This document shows, piece by piece, positions 9,040 to 36,597 of a stretch of 64,000 nucleotides of DNA (position 1 is its first letter; each line of letters starts with the position of its first letter). The notes beneath the pieces are model-generated. The model worked only from the letters and a program-made list of their open reading frames with translations. It did not search any database and had not been told where the DNA came from. Source of the stretch: Halogeometricum sp. S1BR25-6 (GTDB lineage: Archaea; Halobacteriota; Halobacteria; Halobacteriales; Haloferacaceae); contig NZ_JAMQOP010000001.1 in NCBI RefSeq assembly GCF_031624495.1, positions 806,001-870,000 of the forward strand, in the 5' to 3' direction. The translations under genes were made by a program, and so were the position numbers.

Positions 9040-9885
9040 TCAATGGAAGATGTGCCCCTCGCGCCGCCACGCCGTCCCCGACGGCCGGAGTCGCTCGGCC
9101 CGCCGCGTTCGCTCCCACGTCGCCACCGCGGCGACGACGGCGTCGAGAGCGTCGCCGTCGGCGTCCGCCACGGCCCGGTCCCGCACGGCAGGGGCGACGG
9201 AGACGCCGTCGAGGGCGGCGAGGGCTTCCAGATTCTCCGTCCGTCGCCGCCGGCCCGCCTCGTCGCTCGTCTTGTACCGCTCGCGGTGAGCGCCGAGGCG
9301 GTCCAGCGTCGCGGCGGGGTAGGCTTCGAGCGCCCACGGCAGGTCGGGGTCGGGGTCCTGCATCGGGAGGACGCGCGCCGCGTCGGCCTCGACGAGGGGT
9401 TTCAGCACGTCGCGGACGCCGTGGAACGTCTGCGCCTTCACGAAGAAGTGATAGGGAGAGGTGGCGCCGACCGCGCGGTCCGTCTCTCGTGGGTAGTACG
9501 TCCGGTCTCCTGCTCTCTCGGCGGCGCGTTCGCGCGCCCACGCCGAGAACTCGCTCGCGTCGGCGAACCCGTTCGGGAACCACCGGACAAACGCCGCCCA
9601 GTCGTCGACGCCCGCCGCGTCCAGCAGGAATGCAGGCAGACCGAACGAGAAGTCGAGACCGAAGGCGGTTCGTCCGCCGGCGTCGGCGAGAAACGACCGG
9701 AGCGCCGGCAGGACGGCCTCGCGGGCGGCGTCGGTTTCGAGGAGGTCCGGCGCGGCGATGCAGGATTCGACGTCGAGAGCGCCTTCGTCGGCCGTTCCGC
9801 GGGCGAGGTATATCGACTCGCCGGCGCGGCGGGCGCCGCTGAAGTCGACGCCGTAGACGGTCGTCGGCGGGTCGAATCCCGTCAT
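9040..9885 (-). CDS. DUF429 family protein (RNase H-like fold)
   Basis: 281 aa from the ATG at 9885, just before the conserved YGVDFSGARRAG; an upstream in-frame extension to 9948 looks less likely. The early Asp and the pattern of the first two beta strands fit the DUF429 family, predicted RNase H-fold nucleases or hydrolases of unknown substrate. No signal or membrane segment. It is divergent from the GNAT gene at 9986, so the ~100-base gap holds both promoters. Confidence 0.75.
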   Translation of the reverse strand: MTGFDPPTTVYGVDFSGARRAGESIYLARGTADEGALDVESCIAAPDLLETDAAREAVLPALRSFLADAGGRTAFGLDFSFGLPAFLLDAAGVDDWAAFVRWFPNGFADASEFSAWARERAAERAGDRTYYPRETDRAVGATSPYHFFVKAQTFHGVRDVLKPLVEADAARVLPMQDPDPDLPWALEAYPAATLDRLGAHRERYKTSDEAGRRRRTENLEALAALDGVSVAPAVRDRAVADADGDALDAVVAAVATWERTRRAERLRPSGTAWRREGHIFH

Positions 9886-19646: not shown

Positions 19647-20837
19647 TTACACGTCGCCGGACATCGCCTCGAACAGGCGCTCACACAGTTTCCGCCGGGG
19701 GAGCGCGTCGCCGCCATCGGTGAGGATGCGGCCGTCGCGTTGAGGAATCTGCCCGCCGCCCATGCGGGCGTGGCCGCCGGCGGAAGCGCCGGGGACGTTG
19801 TCGAGGGCGTGTTCGAGCGTCCGGCCCATGTGGACCCGGTCGTCGCGCGAGCGACCCGACAGAAAGAGCGTGCCGTCGCGTTCGCCGCAGACGACGACGG
19901 CGGTGACCCCCTCCAACTGGATGAGTTCGTCCGCCGCCTGCGGGATGGCGTCGACGTTCGACAGCGTGCCGACGTCGCTGACGGCGAACGGCCCGCGCAC
20001 GTCGCGCCCGGCGATGGCGCGCGCCTTCAGTTCCAGCACCTCCTTGGACACCTCCGGGTTGGCCACCCGGTTGAGCACGTCCTCGTCGACGCCGGGGTAG
20101 AGGTAGCCCGCGGCGGAGAAATCGTTCGCCGAACAGCCCGCGGTGAGCCGCTTCGTGTCGGTGAGGATGCCGTAGAGCAGGCCCGTCGCGACCATCGAAG
20201 GGACGGTGTACTCCGAGCCGACTTCGCTGGCGTGGCGGTCCGGCGGGACCGGCTTCGCGCCGACGTCGCGGAAGTACTCCGCGACGATGCTCGAACAGGC
20301 GCCGTAGTCGGTCCGCACGTCGGTGAACCGCTCGCCCGTCCCCTCGCCGGGGTGGTGGTCGACGACGGCGAACGGAACGAGGCCGTCGGCGCCGGCGAAT
20401 CCGCGCGGACGGTTGTGGTCGACGAGGACGACGTCCGTGGCCGCGAGATCCGTGACGTGGTCGATTACCTCCAGGTCGAGGTCCAACACCGTCTCGAACG
20501 CCCGGTTCTCTTGGTGACGTATCTGGCCGGTGTACTGGATGCGCGCGGTCACGCCGACCTGTTCGGCCAGGCAGGCGACGCCGATGGCCGCCGCCATCGC
20601 GTCGGGGTCCGGGTTGGGGTGCATCAGCACTGCCACCTCGTCCAGTTCCGACAGTCGCTCCAGAAAGCGGGTCCCCGTCGGACGCTTGAAGTGCAGGATC
20701 GCGTACAGACCGCCGCCCAGCGCCACCGCGGCGACGACGACAGCCACGACTAGCCCCGGGTGGTCCGCGAGGACGGATCGGGCCCCACCCACCACCTGCG
20801 CGACCCCCGTCGCGCCGACGGCTGCCCTCGACTCCAT
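19647..20837 (-). CDS. Membrane-anchored DHH-DHHA1 phosphoesterase
   Basis: 396 aa. One transmembrane helix (about residues 28-49) precedes a DHH domain with metal ligands in HPNPDPDA (residues 73-80), VLVDHN (D140, H141) and the signature DHH at 160-162. The C-terminal DHHA1-like part ends in GGHARMGGGQI, the GGGH-type substrate loop. Related enzymes include RecJ-like nucleases, NrnA and cyclic-di-AMP phosphodiesterases (GdpP/DhhP). Membrane anchoring with no nucleic-acid-binding domain makes nanoRNA or cyclic-dinucleotide cleavage plausible. Confidence 0.88.
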   Translation of the reverse strand: MESRAAVGATGVAQVVGGARSVLADHPGLVVAVVVAAVALGGGLYAILHFKRPTGTRFLERLSELDEVAVLMHPNPDPDAMAAAIGVACLAEQVGVTARIQYTGQIRHQENRAFETVLDLDLEVIDHVTDLAATDVVLVDHNRPRGFAGADGLVPFAVVDHHPGEGTGERFTDVRTDYGACSSIVAEYFRDVGAKPVPPDRHASEVGSEYTVPSMVATGLLYGILTDTKRLTAGCSANDFSAAGYLYPGVDEDVLNRVANPEVSKEVLELKARAIAGRDVRGPFAVSDVGTLSNVDAIPQAADELIQLEGVTAVVVCGERDGTLFLSGRSRDDRVHMGRTLEHALDNVPGASAGGHARMGGGQIPQRDGRILTDGGDALPRRKLCERLFEAMSGDV

Positions 20838-21826: not shown

Positions 21827-22258
21827 CTACCGGTCGTTCCGCTCGGCGATGTAGCCGTGGATGGCCGCCAACTGTTCGAGCGTCATCGCGTTCCGGCCCT
21901 CGAGCGCCTGCTGTATCTCCTGTCCGGAGAGACCGAGGTCGACGTTCGAGGCGATGGTGTCCACGTCGAGGACGCCCGTCGTCATCCCGAGGAGGAGGTG
22001 GTCGCGGAGTTCGAGCACGATGGCCTCCTGATCGGGGTACTCCTCCGAAAGCGCCAACAGCGCGGCCGCGTCCTCGACGCGCATGTCGGGCGCGGGGCCG
22101 TCGGCGACGGCGGCGACCTGTTCCTCGTCGACGTCGGCGTCCGCCGCCGCCGCCTCGACGCCGACCGAGTCGACGACGGTCCGAATCTGCGCCTCGTAGG
22201 CTTCTCGCAACTTCGCCGGCGAAAGCGACGCCGGGTCGTCGGCCGCGTCGTAGAGCAT
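21827..22258 (-). CDS. DUF5791-like haloarchaeal protein
   Basis: 143 aa, all-helical and acidic, no cysteine, no membrane segment. It starts MLYDAADDPASLSPAKLREAY and ends in NAMTLEQLAAIHGYIAERND. The repeating helix pattern resembles a small helical bundle. I recall it as DUF5791; function unknown. Its stop codon abuts the start codon of the epimerase gene (no intervening base), suggesting coupled translation. Confidence 0.75.
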   Translation of the reverse strand: MLYDAADDPASLSPAKLREAYEAQIRTVVDSVGVEAAAADADVDEEQVAAVADGPAPDMRVEDAAALLALSEEYPDQEAIVLELRDHLLLGMTTGVLDVDTIASNVDLGLSGQEIQQALEGRNAMTLEQLAAIHGYIAERNDR

Positions 22259-22316
22259 ACTCCCACTCGCCGCGCCTCGGGCAAAACGGTTTCCGTCGCC
22301 TCCGTCGCCAACCGAA

Positions 22317-25300
22317 TCACTCCCGCGGGCACCGTCCCGTCGGCGTGTCGCACCGCGGTCCCGGCGCCGACCCGGCCCACGCCGGGGACGCCTCGAACGC
22401 GTCGCCGTCGACGTCGCCGACGCCGTTGCCGGCGGGCGGGACGACGGCGACGACGACCGTCCGCACCTCGAACCCGATTCGCTCGTTCGACCCGACGACC
22501 TCCCGCGTTCCGTCGCCGTCGACGTCCAGTCGGACGACCGAGCCGTCGCGGACGTACGTCGTCGGGACGGCGCCCCCGCCCGCCGAGACGGCGAAGCGGG
22601 CGTACGCGCCGCGGGCCTCAACGACCCAGAGGTTCGCCGTGGCGACCCACGGGTTCAGCGTCGGCGACAGCGGAAGCCCCGCGGGCACCGACCCGAGCGT
22701 GCCGTTCAGGACGCGGTCGGTCAGGCGGTCGGCGCCGCGGGACGCCGCTTCGTTCGTCAGTTCCGTCGCGAGCGTCCGCGTTCGGGAGGCGGTGCCGTTC
22801 ACGGCCGCTTCCGGGACGCGAACCCCCGGAGCGGTCGTCGCCTCGCGCAACTCGACTCTGAGCGCCGTGGCGAGTCGGTCCCGCGTCGAGTCACTCTCGA
22901 CGCTGACCTCGGACGCGACGGCGGCCGCGAGCGACCCGTTCGACGCGGCGACGGCGCGTGCTCCCGGTCCCCGCCACCGAGCGAGGGCGACGTCCACCGC
23001 CTCGGCGCTCTCGGCGGGCGTCATCGCCGTTTCGCGCCGGACCGCGATTGCGGCCCGCAATCGGACCGTGACGAGCGAGCGGTCCACCTCCTCCGCGAGC
23101 GCGTCGCGTCGGTCACGGAGCGTCGCGTCCTCGCGGGCCGCGAGCGTCCGGTCGGCGGCGACGAGCGCCCGGCCGGCCGTGCGGAGCGACACCCGAGTCC
23201 CGCCGAAGACCCTGCCGACGACCGAGTCCGCGAGGTCGCCGTACGGGAGGGTGAACAGGTTGGTATTCCGGGCCGCCAGCGGCGTGTAGGCGGTTCCGTC
23301 CGCGACGCCGTCCACCGCCGCGCCGTCGACGCCGGACAGCGAGAGGTACGCCGGGTCGCCGTCGGGGACGAACGCGTCGTGGTCGGCGGCGGCGACGGCG
23401 TCTACAGTACCCGAGTCGTCCTCGGCCGCGCGACTGGCGAGCGCCCCCCTCACCGCGTCCGCGTCCACGTTGCGGGAGGCGAGCGCACCCCGCAGTCGGT
23501 CGTTCCGCCCGTCGGCCGCCGCGGCGCGTTCGTCCAGCGCCGCGAGGACGCGGTCGACGTACGCCGCGCGCGCCGCGACGCGGACCCGGTCGGCGACGCC
23601 GTCGTACTCGGCCGGCGCGTCCACCAGGTCCGTCCGTCGGTCGCGGACGGCCGCCGCGAGTTCGGCCGCCGCGTTGGCGTGACCGGTCGCCGCGTCCCGC
23701 GCCGCAACCTCGACCGAGACGTTTCTGACGCGTTCGCGAAGCCCGGCCACGTCCAGATACACCCACTCGCGGAGGGATTCGGGACGCTCGCCGACGTGGG
23801 TCGTCGACGCCGCGGCGCTCCCGCCGGCCGTCCCTCCGCCGGAGAGCGCGGCGCGCCGGGCGACGGCGTCCGCACCGCCGCGGTCCGCGAGTACGCCGCC
23901 CGCCGCCCGCGGGACCGACGCGAGGTTCGGTCCGGAGAGGGCGCCGCCGCGGTCGAACAGCGGCGTCACCGACCGCTCGGGACCCGGAAGCGAGCGGAGC
24001 GACGCGACGACGGCGACGCGGACGCGGTAGTCGTCCGTCCAGCGTCCCGTTGTCGTTCGTCTGGTTCCGTTGCGCACCCACGTCCGCGAGACGGTGTGAC
24101 GCACAAGAACCCGCCGAGCGGTCGTCTCGAAGGCGCGTTCGCCGACGCCGACGGTCCGCGGAGCGGCGGGCGTCTCGGCGGCGTGTACCGACACCGCGGT
24201 GTCGACGTTCTCGTCGACGAGCGTCCATGCCCCCGCCGAGTCGCTCGAACCGAAAGACGCCGACAGCGGGTCGGGAGCCGGCTTCTGTCCTTCGTCGGCG
24301 TCCGTCACCGTCGAGATGACTGTTACGTCCGCGGTGTAGCCGTCTCGACTGAGCGCGGCGAGCGTCGGCGCGTCGTCCCCGTCCTCGCTTCCGAGTAGCG
24401 CGAGAAACGCGTCGTCCGCGGTTCCGCCGACGTCCGCGGGGAACGTCTGCGTCGACAGCGGCTGGTGTGTCCGGGGGTTCGGACGCGGCGCGGCGCCGAC
24501 GAGTCGCTCTGCCGTCTGCCCCCCGACGACGGACGGAAGCGCGTCGGAGAGTCCGGTTCGAAGCGTCGCCGCGCGGACGCCGCGAGCGGCGTCGGGGTCC
24601 GTTCGTCCGAACGAGGCGCGCTGTGCGGCGAGGACGCCGGCGTTCGTCGAGAGCGCCACGTGGCGATTCGCGACGACGTTGTCGACGGGCGCGCCGGCGT
24701 GCTGGGCGAGGCCGCGCGCCTCCGCGACGGCGAGCAGTCCGGCCGTCGCCCGGCGCTTCAGGCCGGGCGCGTACACCGGCGAGCGGTTCAGTCGCCGCTG
24801 GAAGTCCGCCGTCCGGTCGTGGAGCGCGAGTGTCGGCACCGCGACGGTCACGCGCCGGGAGACGGTCCGCTCGGCGACGACACGGCCATCTCGCACGGCG
24901 ACGAGCGAGACGTTCCGAACCGTCGCCGTCAGCGACCGGCCGCCGTCCGCCGGAGACACGGAGACGTCGCGCAACGCCGGTCCGACCCCGGCCTCCGAAA
25001 CCGCCGGAAGCGACGCCCGCGCCGTCGCGTCTCCGCGCCGGTGTTCCACGGTCGATAGCGCGCCGCGGGCCGACAGCGCGATTCTGAGCCGGAGGTAGTT
25101 TCGGAAGGTCCGGTTCTCACCGAGGGCGCGGCCGACCGTCGTGTTCGCGGGCGTCGTCACCGGGTCGGCGGCGGCCGCTCTCGCCGCCTCGCGGACCGCC
25201 ACTCTGAGCGCGGCGGTCGTCTCGGCGTCGACGCGGTCCATCGCGACGTCGACCGAATCGTCCACGACGCCGGCCTCAGGGGAAGCGAGCGACGCCGCGA

Positions 25301-25379
25301 ACGTCGAACTCCCGACGAGGAGCAGCACGCCGACGAGGGCGAACGGGACTCGCGCTCGCTCGTCGTCCGCCAGACGCAT
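22317..25379 (-). CDS. Very large exported protein of the pilus-like locus (DUF7286-type)
   Basis: 1020 aa. A single N-terminal hydrophobic helix (VPFALVGVLLLVGSSTFAASL, residues ~12-32) follows a short charged stretch. The remainder is Ala/Arg/Asp/Val-rich, extracellular-looking, with numerous N-x-S/T sequons. A YVRDGSVVRLDVDGDGTREV segment near the C terminus contains a D-rich DVDGDGT calcium-like loop. I recall this as a haloarchaeal family linked to type II/IV secretion loci (possibly DUF7286). Last gene of a four-gene operon; its ATG overlaps the upstream stop (TGATG). It could be the tip or cargo of the pilus. Confidence 0.78.
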   Translation of the reverse strand: MRLADDERARVPFALVGVLLLVGSSTFAASLASPEAGVVDDSVDVAMDRVDAETTAALRVAVREAARAAAADPVTTPANTTVGRALGENRTFRNYLRLRIALSARGALSTVEHRRGDATARASLPAVSEAGVGPALRDVSVSPADGGRSLTATVRNVSLVAVRDGRVVAERTVSRRVTVAVPTLALHDRTADFQRRLNRSPVYAPGLKRRATAGLLAVAEARGLAQHAGAPVDNVVANRHVALSTNAGVLAAQRASFGRTDPDAARGVRAATLRTGLSDALPSVVGGQTAERLVGAAPRPNPRTHQPLSTQTFPADVGGTADDAFLALLGSEDGDDAPTLAALSRDGYTADVTVISTVTDADEGQKPAPDPLSASFGSSDSAGAWTLVDENVDTAVSVHAAETPAAPRTVGVGERAFETTARRVLVRHTVSRTWVRNGTRRTTTGRWTDDYRVRVAVVASLRSLPGPERSVTPLFDRGGALSGPNLASVPRAAGGVLADRGGADAVARRAALSGGGTAGGSAAASTTHVGERPESLREWVYLDVAGLRERVRNVSVEVAARDAATGHANAAAELAAAVRDRRTDLVDAPAEYDGVADRVRVAARAAYVDRVLAALDERAAAADGRNDRLRGALASRNVDADAVRGALASRAAEDDSGTVDAVAAADHDAFVPDGDPAYLSLSGVDGAAVDGVADGTAYTPLAARNTNLFTLPYGDLADSVVGRVFGGTRVSLRTAGRALVAADRTLAAREDATLRDRRDALAEEVDRSLVTVRLRAAIAVRRETAMTPAESAEAVDVALARWRGPGARAVAASNGSLAAAVASEVSVESDSTRDRLATALRVELREATTAPGVRVPEAAVNGTASRTRTLATELTNEAASRGADRLTDRVLNGTLGSVPAGLPLSPTLNPWVATANLWVVEARGAYARFAVSAGGGAVPTTYVRDGSVVRLDVDGDGTREVVGSNERIGFEVRTVVVAVVPPAGNGVGDVDGDAFEASPAWAGSAPGPRCDTPTGRCPRE

Positions 25380-26314
25380 CAGCGACCGTCCTCCGTCGTT
25401 CGCCCGCCGTCCGTCACGTCGTCTCCGCCGTCGCCGTTCCACGCGCGGACGACGATTCGCACCTCGGAGACGGAGACGGCGGCCGCGGCCGCCTCGGGCG
25501 AGTCGTAGCGCCCTCGAAGGTCGGACTCGACGCGGGGGGCGAGGGTGGACGCGAAGCGCCGGTTCGCCGTCCGCGTGTCCGCGTCGCCGACGGCGTCGGC
25601 GGTATCGGTCGCCGAGACGCCCAGTTCTGCGGCGAGGCGGGCGTAGCGGTACCGCGCGAACGTCGAGACTGGGGCGTCGTCGCGGAGCGCAAGCCGCATC
25701 CGACCGGCCGGCGCCAGCACGTCGACGGTGCGGTTCGCGACGGCGTCCGACAGCGACGCGAAGTCGCGCGTCTCGCGCGGAGAGAGCGGTTCCGCCCCCG
25801 TCGGGACGGTGAGCGTCGCCGCGTCGACGGCTTCGCCCTCGGGGGGAGCGCCCCCGACGGCGACGCGGCCCTCGACCGGCGCGTCGGGGTACGGCCGCCA
25901 GACGGCGTCGATTCGGAGACCGACGGTCGATAGTTCGCTCCGGACGGCGCCGCGGACGGCCGCCCGCAGGCCGTCCCGCGCGTTCGTAACGGGGGCGCCG
26001 TCGAAACCGGCCGTCCCGACGGCGACTCTGGCGAGGAGGCCGGCGAACGATCCGCGCGTCGTCCGCTCGAACTCCGGGCCGGCCGTGCGCTCGAAGCGGA
26101 CGCCTTTCTCGAAGCCGTTCGCCCGACGCGCCCCCGGCGCGAGCGAGTAGTTCACCGTGGCGGTGCTCGTCGCGAGGACGGCGGCGACGGCGTCCGGGCG
26201 GTCCGCACCCTCGTCCACCGCGTCCGCGGACGTTCCGACGTCGGCGGCGGTGACGCCGAGGACGGCGGCGCCGAGGAGGAGGAAGAACACCGCGGCGTCG
26301 ACGGCGGCGTTCAC
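25379..26314 (-). CDS. Exported pilus-locus protein with N-terminal membrane helix (DUF7284-type)
   Basis: 311 aa from a GTG overlapping the upstream stop (GTGA). The mature-like N terminus begins directly with NAAVDAAVFFLLLGAAVLGVT, a TadE/pilin-like hydrophobic helix, followed by an acidic, Ala/Thr-rich ectodomain with a conserved-looking YSLAPGARR and RYARLAAELGVS. A second GTG at 26320 is an alternative start. Together with its neighbours it probably forms a minor pseudopilin set exported by the PilB/PilC machine. Confidence 0.72.
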   Translation of the reverse strand: MNAAVDAAVFFLLLGAAVLGVTAADVGTSADAVDEGADRPDAVAAVLATSTATVNYSLAPGARRANGFEKGVRFERTAGPEFERTTRGSFAGLLARVAVGTAGFDGAPVTNARDGLRAAVRGAVRSELSTVGLRIDAVWRPYPDAPVEGRVAVGGAPPEGEAVDAATLTVPTGAEPLSPRETRDFASLSDAVANRTVDVLAPAGRMRLALRDDAPVSTFARYRYARLAAELGVSATDTADAVGDADTRTANRRFASTLAPRVESDLRGRYDSPEAAAAAVSVSEVRIVVRAWNGDGGDDVTDGGRTTEDGR

Positions 26315-26784
26315 GACCACACCGCCACCGAGAGCCGTCCGGGTTCGACGCGGCCGGGAGCGAGTCGGACGCTGACGAGGCGACCGGCGCGGTCGACGCG
26401 GTTCGTGCGGTCCGCTGCGTCCGACGAGTCCCCGGGAACGGCGGGACCGACGCCCCACTCGCGGCCGTCCGCTGCGAGCGAGACGTTGAGTCGGCGCCCG
26501 GCGGGGCCGCGGTCGCGGGCCTCGGCGAGTCGTGCGGGAGCGACCACGCCGCCGTCGCTCGCCGCATCCGCGACGCGGTCCAGCGTCGGACCGGCCGTGC
26601 TCCGTTCGTCGACGACTGGCACCGCGCCGGCGAGGACGGTCGCGTAGAGACTCACGCCGGCGCAGACGGCGAAGAGGGCCGCGAGGGCGGCGACGGGCGA
26701 CGCCTGCGCGCGGGTTCCCTCGCCGCTCGCGTCGGACGCCGTTCCCCGCTCGGTCGACGGTTCACGCGTCGACGAGGACGACAT
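26311..26784 (-). CDS. Pilin-like protein (DUF7285-type)
   Basis: 157 aa. After ~25 Ser/Thr-rich residues comes RAQASPVAALAALFAV, the archaeal pilin-type signal and hydrophobic helix (compare R-x-Q-x-SPV in haloarchaeal pilins cleaved by PibD), then an ectodomain with a beta-rich end (LVSVRLAPGRVEPGRLSVAVWS). The start lies 23 bases inside the preceding gene. It is a likely structural or minor subunit of the pilus-like system. Confidence 0.78.
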   Translation of the reverse strand: MSSSSTREPSTERGTASDASGEGTRAQASPVAALAALFAVCAGVSLYATVLAGAVPVVDERSTAGPTLDRVADAASDGGVVAPARLAEARDRGPAGRRLNVSLAADGREWGVGPAVPGDSSDAADRTNRVDRAGRLVSVRLAPGRVEPGRLSVAVWS

Positions 26785-27241
26785 CGACCCCCTCCCAGGC
26801 CGTCGTGCGAACGAGAAGCGTGCGGTCCACCGCGCGCCAGGGCGCGTCGGTCCCGCGGGCGCGGGCGTCGACGACCGCCTGCCGGAACGCCTCCGGGTCG
26901 TCGTAGGCGTCCGAGGGGTGCGCGCCGTGCACAACGTCGCGGAGTCGCGAGTTCCCCGGCGGGACGGGCGTGACCGGGCCGAATGCGAGCGTCGCGTGTG
27001 CGGTCCCCGCGTCGTTCCGCAAAGCGAGTCGGCGCGGGCGGAGTCTGACCGCCGTCGCGTCCAGCGGGTGTTCGGCGGTCGAGGTGTACTCGGCGGCCGC
27101 GGCGCGGTCCACCGTCGCGGCCGCGGACTCGGCGTCCGGCGGCGGGGCCGTCGGGAGTCCGGCGGCGGCGCCGACGAGGGCGACGCCCGCGAGCGAGAGT
27201 CCGAGCCACGCGTACCACGCGTCGAGCGGTAAGTCGAGCAT
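26762..27241 (-). CDS. Small exported protein, first gene of the pilin operon (DUF7283-type)
   Basis: 159 aa. The N terminus has one hydrophobic helix (AWYAWLGLSLAGVALVGAAAGL) followed by a soluble domain; no classical lipobox. The order 7283-7284-7285-7286-like is recalled from haloarchaeal genomes, numbers unverified. It starts the operon behind a TATA box and the shared 12-nt element described separately, so the mRNA is probably leaderless or has a very short leader. Confidence 0.72.
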   Translation of the reverse strand: MLDLPLDAWYAWLGLSLAGVALVGAAAGLPTAPPPDAESAAATVDRAAAAEYTSTAEHPLDATAVRLRPRRLALRNDAGTAHATLAFGPVTPVPPGNSRLRDVVHGAHPSDAYDDPEAFRQAVVDARARGTDAPWRAVDRTLLVRTTAWEGVDVVLVDA

Positions 27242-27271
27242 GGGCCGTCTGGCCGCGGATTCGTATATAAA
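27242..27271 (-). promoter_or_regulatory. Promoter of pilin operon: TATA box plus shared start-proximal element
   Basis: On the minus strand TTTATATA (27271-27264) is followed by 10 bases and then GCCAGACGGCCC (27253-27242), directly before the ATG. The distance from TATA to ATG (22 bases between) fits a leaderless haloarchaeal promoter. The 12-nt element matches those before the two other pilus-locus operons. Confidence 0.75.
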
Positions 27272-27301
27272 CGCTCGGCCGGCGGATGTTCGACCCCGCC
27301 G

Positions 27302-29032
27302 TCAGAACAGGAGCGACGCACCGCGGAACGCGGCGAGGTAGGACCCCGTCGCCGCGAGGAGGGCGATTCCGACCCGATAGCCGACGAGCGTCCGGTCGAG
27401 CCCCCGGTCCAGTCCGGTCGAGAGGACGGTCAGCGCGACGGCGAGAAAGAGGACGTAGCCGCCGACCGCCGAACCGAGCAGTTCGGGTCCGAGCGTCGCC
27501 GCCCCCGCCTCCGTCCCGCGGTCGGCGAGGGTGGCGTCGACCGACCCCATCCGGGCCGACATGGCGACGGTGGCGCCGCCGACGAGGGGCGCGAACAGGG
27601 CGGCGGTGTTCGAGAGCGTCCCCGTTACCGCGGCGAGTTCGCGCCGGGCATCCGACTCGACCCGACGGAGGTCCCGCAGGTGGTCCGCGCCGGCGACGAG
27701 AGCATCCCCGGCGGGTCGCCCCTCGTTCGCCGCGACGGACAGGAGTCCGGCGGCCCCCCGCGCCCGCGGACTCGGTACGTCGGCGAGGGCGCCGTATCTC
27801 CCCAAGAAGGCCTCGCGGACGCCGACGCGGAGGCGGCGCCGGACGCCGGCCGCCTCGGCGAACACCTCGCCGGCGGGCGTCGAGAACGCCTCGGCCGCGG
27901 ATTCGACGGCCGCCTCCACCGAGTCGCCCGCGTCGACGCGTCGACCGACGAGCGAGAGGGCGTCGTCCAGTCCGTCCTCGACCGCTCGTGTGCGCGCCCG
28001 CACCTCCGCCGCGGGTCGGTAGCGCACGAGCAATCCGGCTCCGAGGCCCGAACCGACGGCCGTCAACCAGTCGGCCCACGGGGCGACGGCGGCCCCGACG
28101 ACCCACCCCCCGGCGCCGCAGGCCACGGCGGCGCCCAGCGCTCGCGCGGGCGAGGAGGGGACGTCCGGGTGACTCGAATCGATGCGCGGCGGCGCCAGCG
28201 CCACCGGTCGTCGGAGCAGAATCCACGCCCCCGCGGCGACTAACGAGAGCGGAAGCAGCAGGTCGTAGACGGCGACGAACAGCGCTGTCGGAACCGAGAC
28301 GCCGCCGGCGCGGGCCGCCGGGAGGACGCCGACCAGCGCCAACGGAAGCAGGACGCCGAAGGCGTAGACGCCCGTCGCCGGTCCGCGGACGTCCGCCGCG
28401 AACGACGCGAGGTCGTCCCGAGTGCCGTCCAGCACGGCGTCGAGCGCGCGGTCCAATGTCCGCTCTCGGTCCGTGGGCCGGGCGTCGGCGGCCGTCTGGA
28501 GCAACGAGACCGCTCTGGCGAGCGCCGGGAACCCTTCGGCCCATTCGGCGGCGAACGACTCGAACCCCGTGTCGGGCGTGCCGCGGGCGCGGCGGACGTG
28601 CTCTTCGAGACTGTCGGCCAGCGGTCCGTCGGCGGTATGCGCGGCGAAGGAGGCGGCGCGCTCGGGAACGGGGGCCAGTCGCATCCGGAGCGTCGCGCGG
28701 CCGACCAGCGCCGTCGTCTCCCCCAGCGCGCGCGTCCGCCTGAGCCGAGCGGCGGCGCCTGGCAACCGGTGAACGGCGTGCGTCCCCGCGAGTCCGACGG
28801 CGAGGCCGGCACAGAGGCGGACGAAGAGGGGGAGACCGGCGAACGCGAGCGTCGAGAGGAGGACCACCGCCAGCGAGAGCGGGAGACAGAGCCCGTACCC
28901 CGCGCGGACGACGGTTTCGGCGTCGGCGTCGCTGCCGAGGTACGCGAGCGCCTCGCGCAGGTCGTCGCTCGGGTCGACCGGCCACGGATACAGTCGCGCC
29001 AGCGCGTCGGCGATTCGCGGGAGGTCGGTCAT
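27302..29032 (-). CDS. pilC: Type II secretion/type IV pilus membrane platform protein (PilC/TadC-like)
   Basis: 576 aa polytopic protein with two GspF-like halves. Hydrophobic clusters are seen at about residues 42-85, 225-270, 290-325 and 520-576. Cytoplasmic helical segments (RPTDRERTLDRALDAVL and VEDGLDDALSLVGRR) resemble the GspF repeats. It would anchor the assembly ATPase and help polymerise pilins. The start overlaps the PilB stop (ATGA, 4 bases). Symbol given by family; several paralogues exist in haloarchaea, so the number is not assigned. Confidence 0.85.
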   Translation of the reverse strand: MTDLPRIADALARLYPWPVDPSDDLREALAYLGSDADAETVVRAGYGLCLPLSLAVVLLSTLAFAGLPLFVRLCAGLAVGLAGTHAVHRLPGAAARLRRTRALGETTALVGRATLRMRLAPVPERAASFAAHTADGPLADSLEEHVRRARGTPDTGFESFAAEWAEGFPALARAVSLLQTAADARPTDRERTLDRALDAVLDGTRDDLASFAADVRGPATGVYAFGVLLPLALVGVLPAARAGGVSVPTALFVAVYDLLLPLSLVAAGAWILLRRPVALAPPRIDSSHPDVPSSPARALGAAVACGAGGWVVGAAVAPWADWLTAVGSGLGAGLLVRYRPAAEVRARTRAVEDGLDDALSLVGRRVDAGDSVEAAVESAAEAFSTPAGEVFAEAAGVRRRLRVGVREAFLGRYGALADVPSPRARGAAGLLSVAANEGRPAGDALVAGADHLRDLRRVESDARRELAAVTGTLSNTAALFAPLVGGATVAMSARMGSVDATLADRGTEAGAATLGPELLGSAVGGYVLFLAVALTVLSTGLDRGLDRTLVGYRVGIALLAATGSYLAAFRGASLLF

Positions 29033-31047
29033 CGCGGCGCCCCGGAACTACTATCCTGGGTCGGTAGGTCCTCCGGGCGCGTCCGGTCGGTCGCGGCGAG
29101 GCGCGAAAGCGTCCGCTTCCGGCGGTCGAGTTCGGCCAGCACGTCGGCGTAGGACTCGTCGTGCCGGGCCAGCGACGCCACCAAGGCGCTGTCGCCGCGG
29201 GCGACGACGCCGGTTCCGCCGGTGTCCCCGTTGTCCTCGCCGCTCCGGTCGTACAGCGTCTCGAATCCGAGCGCGGACTCGTCCCCGCGAACGCCGTCAC
29301 CGCCTCGGCGGACCTCCGCGACGGCGTCGACGCGTCGCTCCGGGCCGTCGCGGGCGCAGACGACGACGAGGTCCGTCGCCGCGAACGACGACTCGGGGAC
29401 CGCGAGGTCCGAGACGACCCGTTCGCGGACCGCGGCGGGCGAGTCGCCGTGGACGGTTCCGAGGACGGCGTGCCCGTGCGCGCCGACGCGCATCGCCTCG
29501 TACAGCGCGGCGGCCTCCTCGCCGCGCACCTCGCCGACGACGAGGGCGCCGTCGCCGAGTCGAAGCGCGGTTCGGACCGCGTCCGTGGGGGAGAACGACG
29601 ACCCCTCTCCGAGTTCGGTGCGGAGCGGTTGCACGTCGCGGCCGCCCTCCCTGAGCGCGTCGACCGGGAGTTCGGGCGTATCTTCGACGGCGACGAGGCG
29701 CGTCGACGCCGGGAGTTCCCAGAGGAGCGCCGAGAGCAGCGTCGTCTTGCCCGCGCCGCGCGTCCCGGCGACGAGTCCGGTCGCGCCGCGTTCGGTCGCC
29801 ACGGAGAGGAGCGCCGCCGCCTCGGCCGACAGCGTCCCGGCCGCGACGAGGCCGGGGAGCGTCCACGTCCGGTCGCCGTGCGCGCGGAAGGCGAAGCCGA
29901 CGCCGTCGCTGGCGGGCGCGGTGACGCCCGCGACGCGGATGCGGCCGTTCGGCCCGCGGACGGTGGCGTCAAGCGCCGGCGAAGCCCGCGAGAAACCGCG
30001 TCCGCTGGCGCGTCGGAACCGGGAGGCGAGGGCCGCCGCGCCGTCGGCCGTGAGGCGGACGTTCGTTGGGAGGCGCTCGCCGTCGAGGGTGACGCGCACG
30101 GGGTTCGACTCGACGGGCGCGGAGGCGACCACGTCCGTCACGCGCGGGTCGGCGAACAGGTCGTCGAGGACGCCGTTGCCGCGCGTGTGGCGGTCCAGCA
30201 CGTCCGAGAGCGTCTCGACCGGGTCGTCCTCGTCCGCGACGTGTCGGACGGCCCGGCCGGGGGCGCGTTCGCCCCCGCCGACGACGCCGCGGGCGAGGCA
30301 GTCGTACGCCGCGGAGAGGGTCGCCGTCGCGTCCGCGCCGAGGCCGTGCGAGACGGGCGTGAGGTGGTACAGCCGGTCCGCGCTCGTTTCCGGCCCGTCG
30401 GTCCGATACAGCCGAACCGTCGCGCCGGTGTCGAGTTCCCGCCGGTCGAGGAGCGTCGCGTCCGGCGGCGGACGGCCGACGACCCGCGACCGAGCGACGG
30501 ACGGCCCGACGGAGCAGCGGAGTCGGTCCGCGTAGTCGTCCCCGCCTGCCTCTCCTCCACTGTTCCCGTTCCTTGGGACGACGTGTTCGACGCCCGCGAC
30601 GAGACCCGTTTCGGCGGCGATTCGGGCCACCGGACCCGCTCGACCGGTCGCCCGGCGGGCGGCCGCGACGGGGTCGCGCAGGGCGCGGTCGGCCAGCGAC
30701 TCGTCGTGGAAGCGCGCGCGTTCGACGAACCGGCCCGCCGCGAGGAGGAGACCGGCGGCGCCGTCGCTGTACGTGCGTTCGAGTCCGTCGGCGCGCGTGC
30801 GGACCGCGTCGGCGTCCCGGTCGGCGAGTGCGGCGACGACGGCGGCGCGGCACGCCGGGTCGCGCGCGAGGTCACCCGACCCGGGGCAGTCGTCGGCGTC
30901 GACGACGAGTTCGGTTCGGTCCGTACCTCGACCGACGGACGTCTCGAACGAGTGGTGACACCGGCACGCGTCCGTTCCGTCGACGTCGGCACCGTCGAAG
31001 ACGACCGCGTTCGCGGCGGCGGCGAGAGCGGCGAAGTCGAGTGGCAT
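29029..31047 (-). CDS. pilB: Type II/IV secretion assembly ATPase (PilB/TadA-like)
   Basis: 672 aa. Walker A GTRGAGKTTLL near residues 427-437, Walker B-like LVVGEVRGEEA near 490-500 and a His box GTVHGDSPA near 530-538 identify a GspE-superfamily ATPase that powers pilin assembly. The N terminus carries cysteines and histidines (C28, C30, H31, H32, then C54 and C66), a possible zinc site found in haloarchaeal members. First gene of the pilB-pilC operon, behind the shared promoter element. Confidence 0.9.
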   Translation of the reverse strand: MPLDFAALAAAANAVVFDGADVDGTDACRCHHSFETSVGRGTDRTELVVDADDCPGSGDLARDPACRAAVVAALADRDADAVRTRADGLERTYSDGAAGLLLAAGRFVERARFHDESLADRALRDPVAAARRATGRAGPVARIAAETGLVAGVEHVVPRNGNSGGEAGGDDYADRLRCSVGPSVARSRVVGRPPPDATLLDRRELDTGATVRLYRTDGPETSADRLYHLTPVSHGLGADATATLSAAYDCLARGVVGGGERAPGRAVRHVADEDDPVETLSDVLDRHTRGNGVLDDLFADPRVTDVVASAPVESNPVRVTLDGERLPTNVRLTADGAAALASRFRRASGRGFSRASPALDATVRGPNGRIRVAGVTAPASDGVGFAFRAHGDRTWTLPGLVAAGTLSAEAAALLSVATERGATGLVAGTRGAGKTTLLSALLWELPASTRLVAVEDTPELPVDALREGGRDVQPLRTELGEGSSFSPTDAVRTALRLGDGALVVGEVRGEEAAALYEAMRVGAHGHAVLGTVHGDSPAAVRERVVSDLAVPESSFAATDLVVVCARDGPERRVDAVAEVRRGGDGVRGDESALGFETLYDRSGEDNGDTGGTGVVARGDSALVASLARHDESYADVLAELDRRKRTLSRLAATDRTRPEDLPTQDSSSGAPR

Positions 31048-31077
31048 GGGTCGGCTGGCCGCCTCCCGGTATAAGAA
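31048..31077 (-). promoter_or_regulatory. Promoter of pilB-pilC operon: TATA box plus shared start-proximal element
   Basis: On the minus strand TTCTTATA (31077-31070), 10 bases, then GCCAGCCGACCC (31059-31048) immediately before the ATG at 31047. Spacing is identical to the pilin-operon promoter. The element lies where the transcription start of a leaderless mRNA would be. Confidence 0.75.
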
Positions 31078-31079
31078 GC

Positions 31080-31562
31080 TCAGGTGCGACTTCGGCTCCC
31101 CCGCCCGACGACGAGCACTGGCGCGTCGCCCTCACCCGTCGCCCGCAGTGACAGCGAGACCGACCGCTCGCCGCGCCCGCGGAGGACGACCGGACCCCCC
31201 GGCGTCCGCACCGGAACCGGGAGAGAGAGCAGTCGCCGCGTCTCGCCGCCGCCCTCGACCGCGTAGGTCACGACGCTCCGGTTGCCCGGTCCGCCCGGCG
31301 ACCCGCCAACGGCGACGTATTCGACCGCCGCGGCGGTCCACGTCGGCCGGGGGAGCGAGAGTACGACTGCTCTCCTCGGCGCGACGGCGGGGTCGCTCGT
31401 CGCGTCGCTGCCGACGGCGAGCGCGGACCCGGCGGCCGAGAGGCGCGCTATCGAGGTATCGAGCGCCGTCGCGGTCCGGTCGGCACGCGCGTCCTCGACC
31501 GCCGGGAGCGACGCGACGAGCACCGCCGTCGCCAGCACCGCCGCGAGGACGACGCGGAGCAC
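31080..31562 (-). CDS. Exported protein of the pilus-like locus (DUF7311-type)
   Basis: 160 aa from a GTG. The N-terminal helix LRVVLAAVLATAVLVASLPAV (residues 2-22) is a pilin-like or uncleaved signal anchor. The rest has short beta strands (TAAAVEYVAVGG, GPVVLRGRGERSVSLSLR). It follows the coiled-coil gene by one base and ends just before the pilB promoter. I recall it as DUF7311, paired with DUF7310 next to pilB genes in haloarchaea. Exact role unknown. Confidence 0.72.
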   Translation of the reverse strand: MLRVVLAAVLATAVLVASLPAVEDARADRTATALDTSIARLSAAGSALAVGSDATSDPAVAPRRAVVLSLPRPTWTAAAVEYVAVGGSPGGPGNRSVVTYAVEGGGETRRLLSLPVPVRTPGGPVVLRGRGERSVSLSLRATGEGDAPVLVVGRGSRSRT

Positions 31563-31563
31563 G

Positions 31564-32058
31564 TCACAGCGCCCCGCGGAGACGGGCGGCGAGGGAGCCG
31601 GCGTCCGTCTCGTCCGCGGCCTCCGCTCCCGTCTCGGCCGCGTCGACGGCGGACGAGGGGTCGCCGTCGACGTCGTTCCCGTCCGGGAGGCGTTCGACGA
31701 CGAGGCCGTCCGATTCCCGGTCGGCCGCCGCGCGTTCGGTCGCCGCGCGCTCAGCCGTCGCGAGGGCGAGGTCCGCGCGCCGCTCGACGGACTCGTTCAC
31801 CGCCTCGACGCCGCCGAGCAGTCCGCGGACGGCGTCGAGTTCGGCCGTCAGTTCGGCCACCCGTCGTTCGAGTCGACGGATGGTCTCGGCCGTGCCGTCG
31901 TCCGCGGCGCCCCCGTCGGATGAGGCTCCGAGGGCGCCTGGGGCGGGTTCCGTGCTTGCGACAGCCTTCGAATCAGCGCGCTCTCCGTCGGTCAGGGCGC
32001 GTTCGACGGCGTCGAGGCGGGCGGCGAGCGTGGCGACGTCCGTCCGGTCGTTCGGCAT
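31564..32058 (-). CDS. Coiled-coil protein of the pilus-like locus (DUF7310-type)
   Basis: 164 aa, cytoplasmic, acidic. Two heptad-repeat segments are visible: residues ~7-25 (VATLAARLDAVERALTDGE) and ~62-95 (ETIRRLERRVAELTAELDAV and onwards), then an Ala/Glu helix. The C terminus (ADETDAGSLAARLRGAL) is a short amphipathic helix. A coiled coil encoded beside the assembly ATPase suggests a scaffold or regulatory subunit for PilB. Own promoter with the shared element. Confidence 0.75.
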   Translation of the reverse strand: MPNDRTDVATLAARLDAVERALTDGERADSKAVASTEPAPGALGASSDGGAADDGTAETIRRLERRVAELTAELDAVRGLLGGVEAVNESVERRADLALATAERAATERAAADRESDGLVVERLPDGNDVDGDPSSAVDAAETGAEAADETDAGSLAARLRGAL

Positions 32059-32088
32059 GGGAGGGCTGGCTCCATCATGTCATATAAA
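32059..32088 (-). promoter_or_regulatory. Promoter of the coiled-coil gene, possibly shared with cetZ
   Basis: On the minus strand TTTATATG (32088-32081), 10 bases, then GCCAGCCCTCCC (32070-32059) directly before the ATG at 32058. On the plus strand the same A+T block reads CATATAAAG and lies 46-53 bases before the cetZ ATG, so it could act as TATA in both directions. Confidence 0.72.
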
Positions 32089-32133: not shown

Positions 32134-33219
32134 ATGAAGACCGTCCTGATAGGAGTCGGGCAGGCCGGGGGGAAACTCACCCGCGCGCTGGTCGACTTCG
32201 ACGACCGAATGGAGTTCGGCGCAGTGCTCGGCGCCGTCGGCGTGAACTCCGCGAAGGCGGACCTCCGAGACTTGCCCTTCGAGACCGTCCTCGTCGGACA
32301 GGACCGAGTGAAGGGTCACGGCGTCGGCGGTGACAACGAACTCGGCGCGGCCGTGATGGACGCGGACAGGCGGGAAGTGCTGTCCGCTCTCGACGGCAGC
32401 GTCACGGCCGAAACCGAGGCCATCTTCGTCGTCGCCGGCCTCGGCGGGGGGACCGGGAGCGGCGGCGCGCCGGTCCTCGTGCGCGAACTCAAGCGGATAT
32501 ACGACGTCCCCGTCTACGCGCTCGGCGTCCTCCCCGGGCGGAACGAGGGCGCGATGTACCAAGTGAACGCGGGCCGGTCGCTGAAGACCGTTGCCCGCGA
32601 GGCGGACTCGCTGTTGCTCGTCGACAACGACGCCTTCCGAACGTCCGGCGAGAGCCTCGAAGAGGGGTTCGACGCCATCAACGAGGCCATCGCGCAACGC
32701 GTCGGCCTGCTGTTCGCCTCCGGCGAGGCCGTCGAGGGCGTCGCCGAGAGCGTCGTCGACTCCTCCGAAGTGATAAACACCCTCCGCTCGGGCGGCATCG
32801 CCGCACTCGGCTACGCCGCCGCCGAGTCGGCCGAGGACGCCGAAGGCAACATCAACACCGTGATGAGCACGACGCGGCGCGCCCTCCTCACCGGAACGAG
32901 CCTACCCGAGGCGTCGGAGGCCGACTCGGCGCTCCTCGTCATCGCCGGCGAACCCGACAAGATTCCCCGCAAGGGCGTCGAACGCGCCCGCCGGTGGGTC
33001 GAAGAGGAGACGGGCAGCCTGCAGGTCCGCGGCGGCGACTTCCCGCTGGGGTCCGACCGCATCGCGTCGCTCGTCCTCCTCGGGGGCGTCGAGCGTTCCG
33101 ACCGCTTGGAAGCGTTCATGCAACGGGCGCGAGACGCCGCGAACGAGGCCGACGAGGCCGAACCCCGCGAGGATCCCGCGAACGCCTGGCGCACCGACGA
33201 ACTCGACGACCTCATCTGA
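32134..33219 (+). CDS. cetZ: CetZ tubulin-like cytoskeletal GTPase
   Basis: 361 aa. The GTP-binding loop GGGTGSGGAP is at residues ~103-112 and the N-terminal VLIGVGQAGGKL fits FtsZ/tubulin folds. The GSGGAP form and overall divergence from FtsZ1 (also in this window) mark it as CetZ, a family controlling haloarchaeal cell shape and motility. Length and map position suggest the CetZ2 type, by recollection of Haloferax volcanii. The ATG at 32134 is chosen because it directly precedes the first beta strand. It is divergent from the pilus coiled-coil gene. Confidence 0.9.
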   Translation: MKTVLIGVGQAGGKLTRALVDFDDRMEFGAVLGAVGVNSAKADLRDLPFETVLVGQDRVKGHGVGGDNELGAAVMDADRREVLSALDGSVTAETEAIFVVAGLGGGTGSGGAPVLVRELKRIYDVPVYALGVLPGRNEGAMYQVNAGRSLKTVAREADSLLLVDNDAFRTSGESLEEGFDAINEAIAQRVGLLFASGEAVEGVAESVVDSSEVINTLRSGGIAALGYAAAESAEDAEGNINTVMSTTRRALLTGTSLPEASEADSALLVIAGEPDKIPRKGVERARRWVEEETGSLQVRGGDFPLGSDRIASLVLLGGVERSDRLEAFMQRARDAANEADEAEPREDPANAWRTDELDDLI

Positions 33220-34660: not shown

Positions 34661-36010
34661 TTACTGCGTGAGCAGGCTCGCGCCGTCGAAGTCGGTCCGA
34701 CTGTAGTCGACCTCCATCAGGTCGAGGATTGTCGGGGCGATGTCGAACAGGTCCGCGTCCTCGATGGCCGCGTCGGGGTCGTCGATGAACAGCGACGCGT
34801 TGTCGAAGCTGTGCATCCCGTTGCGGGGGCCCTGTCCGAACACGTCGGCGTCGCCCTTGAACCCGGACTTCAGGTCGAAGCCGTGGTTCGGGACGACGAC
34901 GAGGTCCGGGGCGATGTCGTCGTGGTCGCCGCGGAACGCCTCCTCCTTCTCGACGACGCGGTCCGCGACCTTCCGGCCGTTCGGACCTTCGAGGTTCTCC
35001 AGCATCTCCTTCAGTTCGTCGCGGCGCTCCTCGTACTCCGCTTCGGGGACGGCGCCGCGCGGTTCGCGACCCTCCAGGTTGAGGTAGAAGCGGCCGGGGA
35101 TGAGCGAGTACGCGAGCGTGTCGTCGGAGATGTCGTCCAGTTGCTCGTGGTCGTCGTCCTCGTAGGAGAGCCAACCCTCCTCTTCGAGGAGCGCGTTGCA
35201 GTGGACCTCGTAGTCCAGCGAGGTGAACCCGTGGTCGGAGGCGACGACGAGCGTCACGTCGTCGGGGACGATCTCCCGAATCTCGCCGAGGTAGTCGTCC
35301 ACCTTGCGGTAGAACTCCATGAACTTCTCTTTGTCGGGGGTGTCGTCCTCGTAGTCTTTGAACAGGAAGTGGTTGACCCGGTCGGTCGTCATGAACACGC
35401 CGAAGAAGAGGTCCCAGTCGTCCTGTTCGAGGTAATGCGTGAACGCCTCGAAGCGCTTGTCGATGGTCTTGTGGGCGTTCTCGGCGAACTCGGTCTTGTC
35501 GTCTTTGTGCCCGAGTTTCGCGTTCGTGTCGATGATGTAGCCCATCCCGTCGAGGTAGTCCCGGAACTCGTCGGGGTAGGCGGCCTTGTCGACGCTGGGC
35601 GAGAGGAAGCCCGAGACCATGCGTTGGACGTTTCGCTGCGGCGGGAACGTCACGGGGACGTTCATCACCGTCGCCTTGCGTCCGCTGTCGGTCACGCGGT
35701 CCCAGAGGCGGGTCGCCTGCACGTCGCGCCCCATGGGGACGTACGTGTCGTACGAGCCGTTCTCTCGGTCCTGAAAGCCGTACACGCCGGTCTCGCCGGG
35801 GTTGACGCCGGTGGTGAGCGAGGGCCAACACGCCGATGACTCCGGCGGCACGATGCTCTCGATGGCGCCGGCGCTACCCGCGTCCGCGAGGGCCGCCATG
35901 TTGGGGAACTCGTCGGGATTGTCGGCGAGGAGACTAAAGGGAACGCCGTCGATTCCGATGAAGGCGACACGCGGGTCGTCTTGCCCACGTAGTCGGTCGA
36001 ACAAACCCAT
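34661..36010 (-). CDS. Alkaline phosphatase superfamily phosphodiesterase (type I NPP-like)
   Basis: 449 aa. The metal-binding D21 in VAFIGIDGVPF and the nucleophile region SSACWPSLTTG (residues 58-68) are followed by ASDHGFTSLDYEVHCN and DLFDIAPTILDLMEVDY, all typical of type I phosphodiesterase/nucleotide pyrophosphatase proteins. No signal peptide, so it acts inside the cell; nucleotide or phospho-sugar hydrolysis is likely. A Shine-Dalgarno AAGGAG (36020-36015, minus) sits 4 bases before the ATG at 36010, which decides this start over an upstream extension. Confidence 0.88.
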   Translation of the reverse strand: MGLFDRLRGQDDPRVAFIGIDGVPFSLLADNPDEFPNMAALADAGSAGAIESIVPPESSACWPSLTTGVNPGETGVYGFQDRENGSYDTYVPMGRDVQATRLWDRVTDSGRKATVMNVPVTFPPQRNVQRMVSGFLSPSVDKAAYPDEFRDYLDGMGYIIDTNAKLGHKDDKTEFAENAHKTIDKRFEAFTHYLEQDDWDLFFGVFMTTDRVNHFLFKDYEDDTPDKEKFMEFYRKVDDYLGEIREIVPDDVTLVVASDHGFTSLDYEVHCNALLEEEGWLSYEDDDHEQLDDISDDTLAYSLIPGRFYLNLEGREPRGAVPEAEYEERRDELKEMLENLEGPNGRKVADRVVEKEEAFRGDHDDIAPDLVVVPNHGFDLKSGFKGDADVFGQGPRNGMHSFDNASLFIDDPDAAIEDADLFDIAPTILDLMEVDYSRTDFDGASLLTQ

Positions 36011-36129
36011 ACCACTCCTTCCGCGGAGACGCCATATGAAGGTTCTTCTACGTCCGAACGCCTGCCGGTGACTGCGACGTCGCGAGAACGGGTCGGGCGG
36101 GCGGCGACATCGGGGCGAAGGAGCGAAGT

Positions 36130-36597
36130 GTGGCCCGTTCCTACTCGGAACCGACAACCGTGAAGGAGTTCGAGCGAAAGCAGTTGCTGGAACGGGTCAA
36201 CCGCGAGGGCGCCACGGTGGGCGTGGACATCCCCGACGCCATCGACGTGCAGGGCGAGGAGGTCGAACTGCGCGACTTCGTCTTCGAGATAAAGCGCCGC
36301 GACACGATTCCCGACGGGGAACGCGAACGGGTCGAGGCGGCCAAGAAGAACCTCCGGCGCGAACGCCTCGAACGCCTCCAGCGCATCGAGGACAACGAGG
36401 TGAGCTACGAGGAGGGCGAGCGACTCGTCGAGAGCATCGTTGGCATCGACCGGGCGCTGAACGCCCTCGAACAGTTGCGCCCGGCGGACCTCGAACAGGA
36501 GGCGCAGTTGCAGGAGGCCCAAGACCAGAAGCGCTGGATGAACTTCCTGAAGCAGGCGCTCGGCCGCGACAGCGGTTCCGGCCGAGGGGGCCGCTGA
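36130..36597 (+). CDS. DUF5788-like haloarchaeal protein
   Basis: 155 aa from GTG. Highly charged and helical: residues 55-125 (RRDTIPDGERERVEAAKK onwards) look like a long helical hairpin or coiled coil, and the C-terminal ~15 residues are basic and Gly-rich. I recall it as DUF5788 beside polX in haloarchaea. It ends 4 bases before the polX ATG, which suggests one operon and perhaps a repair-linked role. Confidence 0.78.
   Translation: MARSYSEPTTVKEFERKQLLERVNREGATVGVDIPDAIDVQGEEVELRDFVFEIKRRDTIPDGERERVEAAKKNLRRERLERLQRIEDNEVSYEEGERLVESIVGIDRALNALEQLRPADLEQEAQLQEAQDQKRWMNFLKQALGRDSGSGRGGR

Follow-up and report, generated by a model that had tools for sequence, protein, structure and literature searches.

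Archaeal type IV pilus (T4P) systems of subclade 4F, as characterized in the accessible text of Makarova, Koonin & Albers 2016 (PMC4858521), which placed methanogens in this subclade too, combine a PilB clade shared with methanogens, N-terminal cysteines in the ATPase, a coiled-coil protein, an FtsZ-like neighbour and several pilin-like genes. The pil-2 locus of Halobacterium salinarum consists of PilB2-PilC2 followed by pilin genes and was reported as haloarchaea-restricted (Losensky et al. 2015, PMC4292770), and a pilB2/pilC2 regulon has been described beside cetZ2 with DUF5791, epimerase, DHH-family and phosphodiesterase neighbours (Brown & Duggin 2023, PMC9856176). The window analysed here, a 64,000-nucleotide stretch of the haloarchaeon Halogeometricum sp. 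S1BR25-6 (contig NZ_JAMQOP010000001.1, positions 806,001 to 870,000), contains eight co-oriented genes on the minus strand at 22317-32058, in the order DUF7310-DUF7311 / PilB-PilC / DUF7283-DUF7285-DUF7284-DUF7286, where slashes are probable operon borders. Because of its gene order, its neighbours and the ATPase tree, the locus is identified as a complete copy of the haloarchaeal pilB2/pilC2 ("pil-2") locus beside cetZ2, and its gene content assigns it the published label of an archaeal type IV pilus system of subclade 4F. It is a new copy of an already described system, one with almost no experimental work. A preliminary description of the same DNA, which knew of no assigned function for the gene set, was mistaken at the system level, since the type IV pilus locus is present in all three of the above studies. 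As a whole, the block is best explained, with moderate confidence, as a T4P-like adhesion machine in which a giant subunit, DUF7286, starts or caps the filament.

Pfam matches run along the block in the order DUF7310, DUF7311, T2SSE, T2SSF (weak), DUF7283, DUF7285, DUF7284 and DUF7286, followed by DUF5791. The gene content and coordinates of the preliminary description were confirmed for all eight genes. The features are as follows, with protein lengths in amino acids (aa), ORF denoting open reading frame and an arrow marking a leader cleavage point:

32134..33219, plus strand: tubulin-family GTPase CetZ2, a divergently oriented neighbour (ORF open from 32077, start probably at 32134)
31564..32058, minus strand: DUF7310 cytoplasmic coiled-coil protein, 164 aa (PF23991, 9.8e-20)
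31080..31562, minus strand: DUF7311 pilin-like protein without a leader, GTG start, 160 aa (PF23993, 1.4e-41)
29029..31047, minus strand: PilB2-type assembly ATPase, 672 aa (T2SSE, 2.8e-19; Walker A GTRGAGKT)
27302..29032, minus strand: PilC2/TadC-like membrane platform, 576 aa (T2SSF, 0.0079)
26762..27241, minus strand: DUF7283 pilin-like protein without a leader, 159 aa (PF23954, 1.4e-55)
26311..26784, minus strand: DUF7285 prepilin (the RAQASPV protein), 157 aa, class III leader R25-A26↓QASPV (PF23956, 3.3e-35)
25379..26314, minus strand: DUF7284 pilin-like protein, 311 aa, with a GTG start that overlaps the stop codon of DUF7285 (PF23955, 6.7e-80)
22317..25379, minus strand: DUF7286 giant pilin-like subunit, 1020 aa (PF23957, 1100 bits)
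21827..22258, minus strand: DUF5791, not a pilus part; by position arCOG04674, a conserved cetZ2 neighbour (PMC9856176)
20918..21826, minus strand: NAD-dependent epimerase-like protein; by position arCOG03095, a flank of cetZ2 regions (PMC9856176)

The T2SSF match of PilC is below the cut-off, and the call was accepted on length and on the conserved position next to pilB. DUF7310 is probably arCOG07564, the coiled-coil component that the accessible text of PMC4858521 describes for halobacterial subclade 4F. With this presumed identity, the locus shares with subclade 4F the PilB clade, the ATPase cysteines (a cysteine-rich N-terminal extension is frequent there), the coiled-coil partner, the FtsZ-like neighbour and the several pilin-like genes, and differs from the systems described in that text in having no PilA-type major pilin in the block; in 4F systems this pilin is often encoded on its own. 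It shares with the cetZ2-linked regulon the adjacent cetZ2, arCOG04674 and arCOG03095, the arCOG identities being assigned by position and family; no difference from the regulon of PMC9856176 was found, and the window holds another copy of that arrangement. H. salinarum pil-2, however, is one seven-gene transcript with a broken pilC2 in strain R1 (PMC4292770), whereas in the window a promoter probably separates pilC from DUF7283.

To place the ATPase, a phylogenetic tree of 41 ATPases was built. In this tree, seven methanogen genomes each contribute one PilB to the clade of the window PilB (100/100), which lies apart from the paralogues of its own genome, where seven T2SSE matches occur. The seven methanogen PilBs match the window PilB with E values of 1e-74 to 1e-79, whereas the next ATPase in those genomes scores 2.5e-24 or worse; identity over the matched part is about 42-47%, with 38% in one. 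Among the methanogen genomes holding DUF7286, a close PilB was absent only from one genome of low completeness. The window PilB possesses N-terminal cysteines at C28, C30, C54 and C66, and the methanogen ATPases have 6-13 cysteines in their first 300 residues. The best solved-structure match of CetZ2 is 4b45 (563 bits), ahead of 4b46 (327 bits), the CetZ1 structure.

To determine whether the genes are conserved together, co-occurrence was scored in 194 genomes from the same class as the window. Of these, 151 contain DUF7286 and DUF7310 is above the cut-off in 150, with both found by a clear single match in about 147. A clear DUF7310 without DUF7286 occurs in none of the 194 genomes; among the 43 genomes without DUF7286, the best DUF7310 match (E 8.9e-8) is not convincing, as weak matches arise from coiled coils, even in bacteria. 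A few genomes hold DUF7286 only, two of these being fragments. DUF7286 and DUF7310 are therefore gained or lost together across the sample, and the co-conservation in haloarchaea that the preliminary description had proposed to look for was borne out. The order CetZ2, then DUF7310-DUF7311-PilB-PilC-DUF7283-DUF7285-DUF7284-DUF7286, then DUF5791-epimerase recurs across the fetched neighbourhoods with few rearrangements. A decaying, non-functional locus is highly improbable: H. salinarum NRC-1 has an interrupted pilB2 and strain R1 an in-frame stop in pilC2 (PMC4292770), and DUF7286 is fragmentary or interrupted in three genomes (G012, G056 and G153), but every ORF, the Walker A motif, the promoters and the gene overlaps are intact throughout the window locus, and the gene order is conserved.

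Some genomes hold a DUF7286 paralogue in which the main profile match ends near position 690 (loci L042, L043, L048, L052, L053 and L055), and some paralogue loci have no adjacent pilB/pilC; these loci may represent a second pilin set sharing an ATPase. No DUF7286 was found in viral contigs or in the plasmid collection, and a scan of genome contigs returned one locus only, from Halogeometricum pallidum.

DUF7286 is also found in several methanogen families, methanogens being inferred from the phylum and from a matching Methanosarcina acetivorans control. Three methanogen loci (L059, L060 and L061) share the order DUF7311 homologue, a protein in the place of DUF7283, DUF7285, DUF7284 and DUF7286, and a fourth (L062) has the same gene set rearranged. 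DUF7311 aligns with its methanogen counterpart at an HHalign probability of 95.9% (E 6e-9), against 0.2% for cross-controls. The protein in the place of DUF7283 was rejected as a proven homologue (HHalign 7.7%) and corresponds by position only. Homologues of the pilin cassette thus occur outside haloarchaea, contrary to the view of pil-2 as haloarchaea-restricted. Most simply, the cassette predates the split of haloarchaea and methanogens, although transfer between the lineages is also possible. Directly after DUF7286, several methanogen loci encode a protein of about 200 aa that looks to carry a Sec-type signal peptide (15370-15984 in L059; also L061-L065 and L069), a gene missing from the haloarchaeal loci. 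In L059, a protein with a DUF7310-like coiled-coil appearance is encoded divergently beside the pilin cassette (9085-9600, minus strand).

Five proteins of the window block, DUF7311, DUF7283, DUF7285, DUF7284 and DUF7286, possess a pilin-like N-terminal helix, so that at least two, as first estimated, was an undercount. DUF7285 has a class III leader, in which a hydrophobic helix comes after a [KRDE][GA] cleavage motif; its canonical form is R[AG]↓Q-x-[ES]-P, a FlaFind-like motif is present in 38 of 42 homologues, and the methanogen leader reads R-G↓V-T-E-P. Together with the ATPase phylogeny and the conserved gene order, class III leader motifs support the pilus/secretion-like system of the preliminary description. 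The class III motif is absent from DUF7311, DUF7283 and DUF7284 of the window. Compared with the methanogen homologue, haloarchaeal DUF7311 starts only within the mature helix, and no leader was found upstream of it. DUF7284 carries the leader R-[AG]↓[VI]-S-T, or a close variant, at 30 of 30 loci outside the window's family but at 0 of 21 inside it. Within the family the protein starts M-T-S-T-V-L-D, as opposed to R-A-I-S-T-V-V-D elsewhere, with the initiator Met at position -1, the site of the PibD cleavage residue in relatives. This Met is followed by T in 15 of the 21 sequences, by N in 5 (the window and its nearest relatives) and by S in 1. These N-termini show loss of the DUF7284 prepilin leader throughout the family.

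Leader-free pilin-like proteins are known from the archaellum, where ArlF and ArlG lack a signal peptide (PMC8978795); these belong to another operon and another ATPase clade, and the likeness is not based on sequence similarity. With three of the five pilin-like proteins in the window's family leaderless in the manner of ArlF/ArlG, no major pilin in the block and no isolated pil-2 filament found in the literature, the locus could instead serve secretion or envelope anchoring through a pseudopilus-like structure and form no long pilus, with DUF7311, DUF7283 and DUF7284 as an ArlF/ArlG-style periplasmic stator. We regard this as distinctly improbable, given the canonical leader retained on DUF7285 and the leaders on gene products throughout the methanogen cassette. 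A PibD-type peptidase and four Pilin_N genes, none linked to the block, are located elsewhere in the source genome, and these PilA-type genes could supply a filament.

DUF7286 far exceeds the other subunits in size, and its gene is the last of the cluster. Its N-terminal motif [DE]-x-R-[AG]↓R-[VI]-P-F is near-invariant and precedes the only hydrophobic segment of the protein; in the window it reads R8-A9↓R10-V-P-F, followed by a single N-terminal helix. Methanogen homologues retain [VI]-P-[FY] and have R, Y or Q directly behind the cleavage point. With such a motif, PibD could plausibly cut the protein. An acidic residue within the first 12 mature residues is found in 0 of 50 DUF7286 sequences, compared with 51 of 51 for DUF7284 and 34 of 41 for DUF7285. 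The first subunit of a filament is marked by being the largest, being encoded last and lacking an acidic residue near position 5, as in the GspK-type tip pseudopilins of bacterial type II secretion systems (T2SS) and T4P (PMC5207764). DUF7286 displays all three of these published signatures, and a tip role is favoured for this reason: the protein would be a tip-type minor pilin that starts or caps the filament. Of the roles first suggested for the 1020-aa protein (tip, adhesin or secreted cargo), the tip is retained on sequence signatures only, and cargo is disfavoured. DUF7286 differs from GspK in being archaeal, in its length of about 1000 aa and in resembling no solved structure at the sequence level, its alignment profile returning nothing below E 0.7 against solved structures.

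The many N-x-S/T sequons noted previously in this protein exceed expectation, at 9 against 3.6 +/- 1.7 in shuffled sequences (p about 0.005), and enrichment over composition is found in two of three relatives tested as well; as expected, this excess fits an exported domain. The D-rich loop reported alongside them is present (about residues 952-957, DVDGDG) but is a haloarchaeal embellishment absent from methanogen homologues, and it was rejected as a conserved calcium site, being conserved neither in methanogens nor in all haloarchaea. The sequon excess, the non-canonical +1 Arg and a size far beyond that of the other pilin-like proteins would also suit a subclade 4F T4P in which DUF7286 stays outside the filament and, with its N-terminal helix as membrane anchor, acts as a surface adhesin or S-layer-like protein, and the accessible text of Makarova 2016 (PMC4858521) reports a predicted S-layer-like protein as frequent in 4F loci. 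This placement is unlikely, however, as [AG]-x-[VI]-P-F is conserved from haloarchaea to methanogens, no C-terminal membrane anchor was found in DUF7286, and its gene almost always accompanies DUF7285-DUF7284 in the last part of the cassette.

In the adhesion machine proposed here, PilB2 would hydrolyse ATP and, via the PilC2 platform, drive the extraction of pilin-like subunits from the membrane and their addition to a filament. DUF7311, DUF7283, DUF7285, DUF7284 and DUF7286 would constitute a five-member minor-pilin set, of which DUF7286 most likely joins first, starts assembly and remains at the tip, where its large and probably N-glycosylated domain would contact surfaces or the S-layer, like GspK/PilY1-type proteins. 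The bulk filament pilin, of PilA type, would probably come from elsewhere in the genome, DUF7310 would act in the cytoplasm as a regulator or adaptor, and the machine may be positioned with the help of CetZ2. The pilB2 transcript is 8.5-fold up in adherent H. salinarum cells (PMC4292770).

Several observations weigh against this proposal. About a fifth of the genomes do not have the locus, which is therefore dispensable, and pil-2 is broken in some H. salinarum laboratory strains (PMC4292770). A dedicated major pilin (PilA-type) was not found inside the block. DUF7286 fails the FlaFind-like rule on account of its +1 Arg, with only 2 of 50 sequences passing and 48 failing, and the AlphaFold models of DUF7286 and DUF7311 (mean pLDDT 36 and 39) are too poor to interpret, also as regards the pilin fold with an inserted helical domain that marks GspK-type tip pilins. 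The GspK analogy is weakened by haloarchaeal DUF7311, which also has no acidic residues, and by archaeal PilA/major pilins, which generally lack Glu5.

A wider proposal, which we consider tentative and somewhat unlikely, is that the cassette represents the bacterial tip/priming complex in archaeal form, with a pilin-like first subunit of about 1000 residues, that it predates the divergence of haloarchaea and these methanogens and that several of its haloarchaeal subunits have been freed from prepilin processing. Under this proposal, the start codon of DUF7284 has taken the place of the PibD cleavage residue in the window's family, and the mature end of the protein would be set by the translation start, with or without Met removal, and not by PibD. 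The methanogen DUF7285-DUF7284-DUF7286 cassette, the DUF7286 tip signature and the family-wide leader loss of DUF7284 are apparently not described in PMC4292770, PMC9856176 or the accessible text of PMC4858521, although the supplementary tables of the latter may list some of the genes, and no paper was found under the DUF names of the locus. The analysis links six Pfam families of unknown function with a single machine and, through gene neighbourhood, with the CetZ2 cytoskeleton. It also yields testable predictions on the identity of the tip protein and of the subunits that need no PibD, and predicts that one cassette serves haloarchaea and methanogens.

The eight genes probably form three transcription units, DUF7310-DUF7311, pilB-pilC and DUF7283-DUF7285-DUF7284-DUF7286, because of the intergenic gaps (1, 32, -4, 60, -23, -4 and -1 nucleotides from DUF7310 to DUF7286) and the TATA-like boxes, which support the three operons of the preliminary description. 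In the window, TATA-like boxes are present only before DUF7310, PilB and DUF7283:

32082..32088, minus strand: TATA-like box TTTATAT, operon 1, about 27 nucleotides before the DUF7310 ATG
31070..31075, minus strand: TATA-like box CTTATA, operon 2
27264..27271, minus strand: TATA-like box TTTATATA, operon 3

Among relatives, such a box precedes DUF7310 in 5 of 31, PilB in 10 of 41 and DUF7283 in 25 of 39, and none was found before the internal starts examined. The region is flanked by a DHH-family protein (19647-20837, minus strand) and a type I phosphodiesterase (34661-36157, minus strand), both listed as cetZ2 neighbours in PMC9856176. The G+C content of 22001-32000 is 74-76%, compared with about 63-74% in the rest of the window. 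A second tubulin-family gene of the window (60208-61374, minus strand), about 27 kb from cetZ2, is a true FtsZ; its best solved-structure matches are FtsZ (about 397 bits), and an FtsZ_C domain is present.

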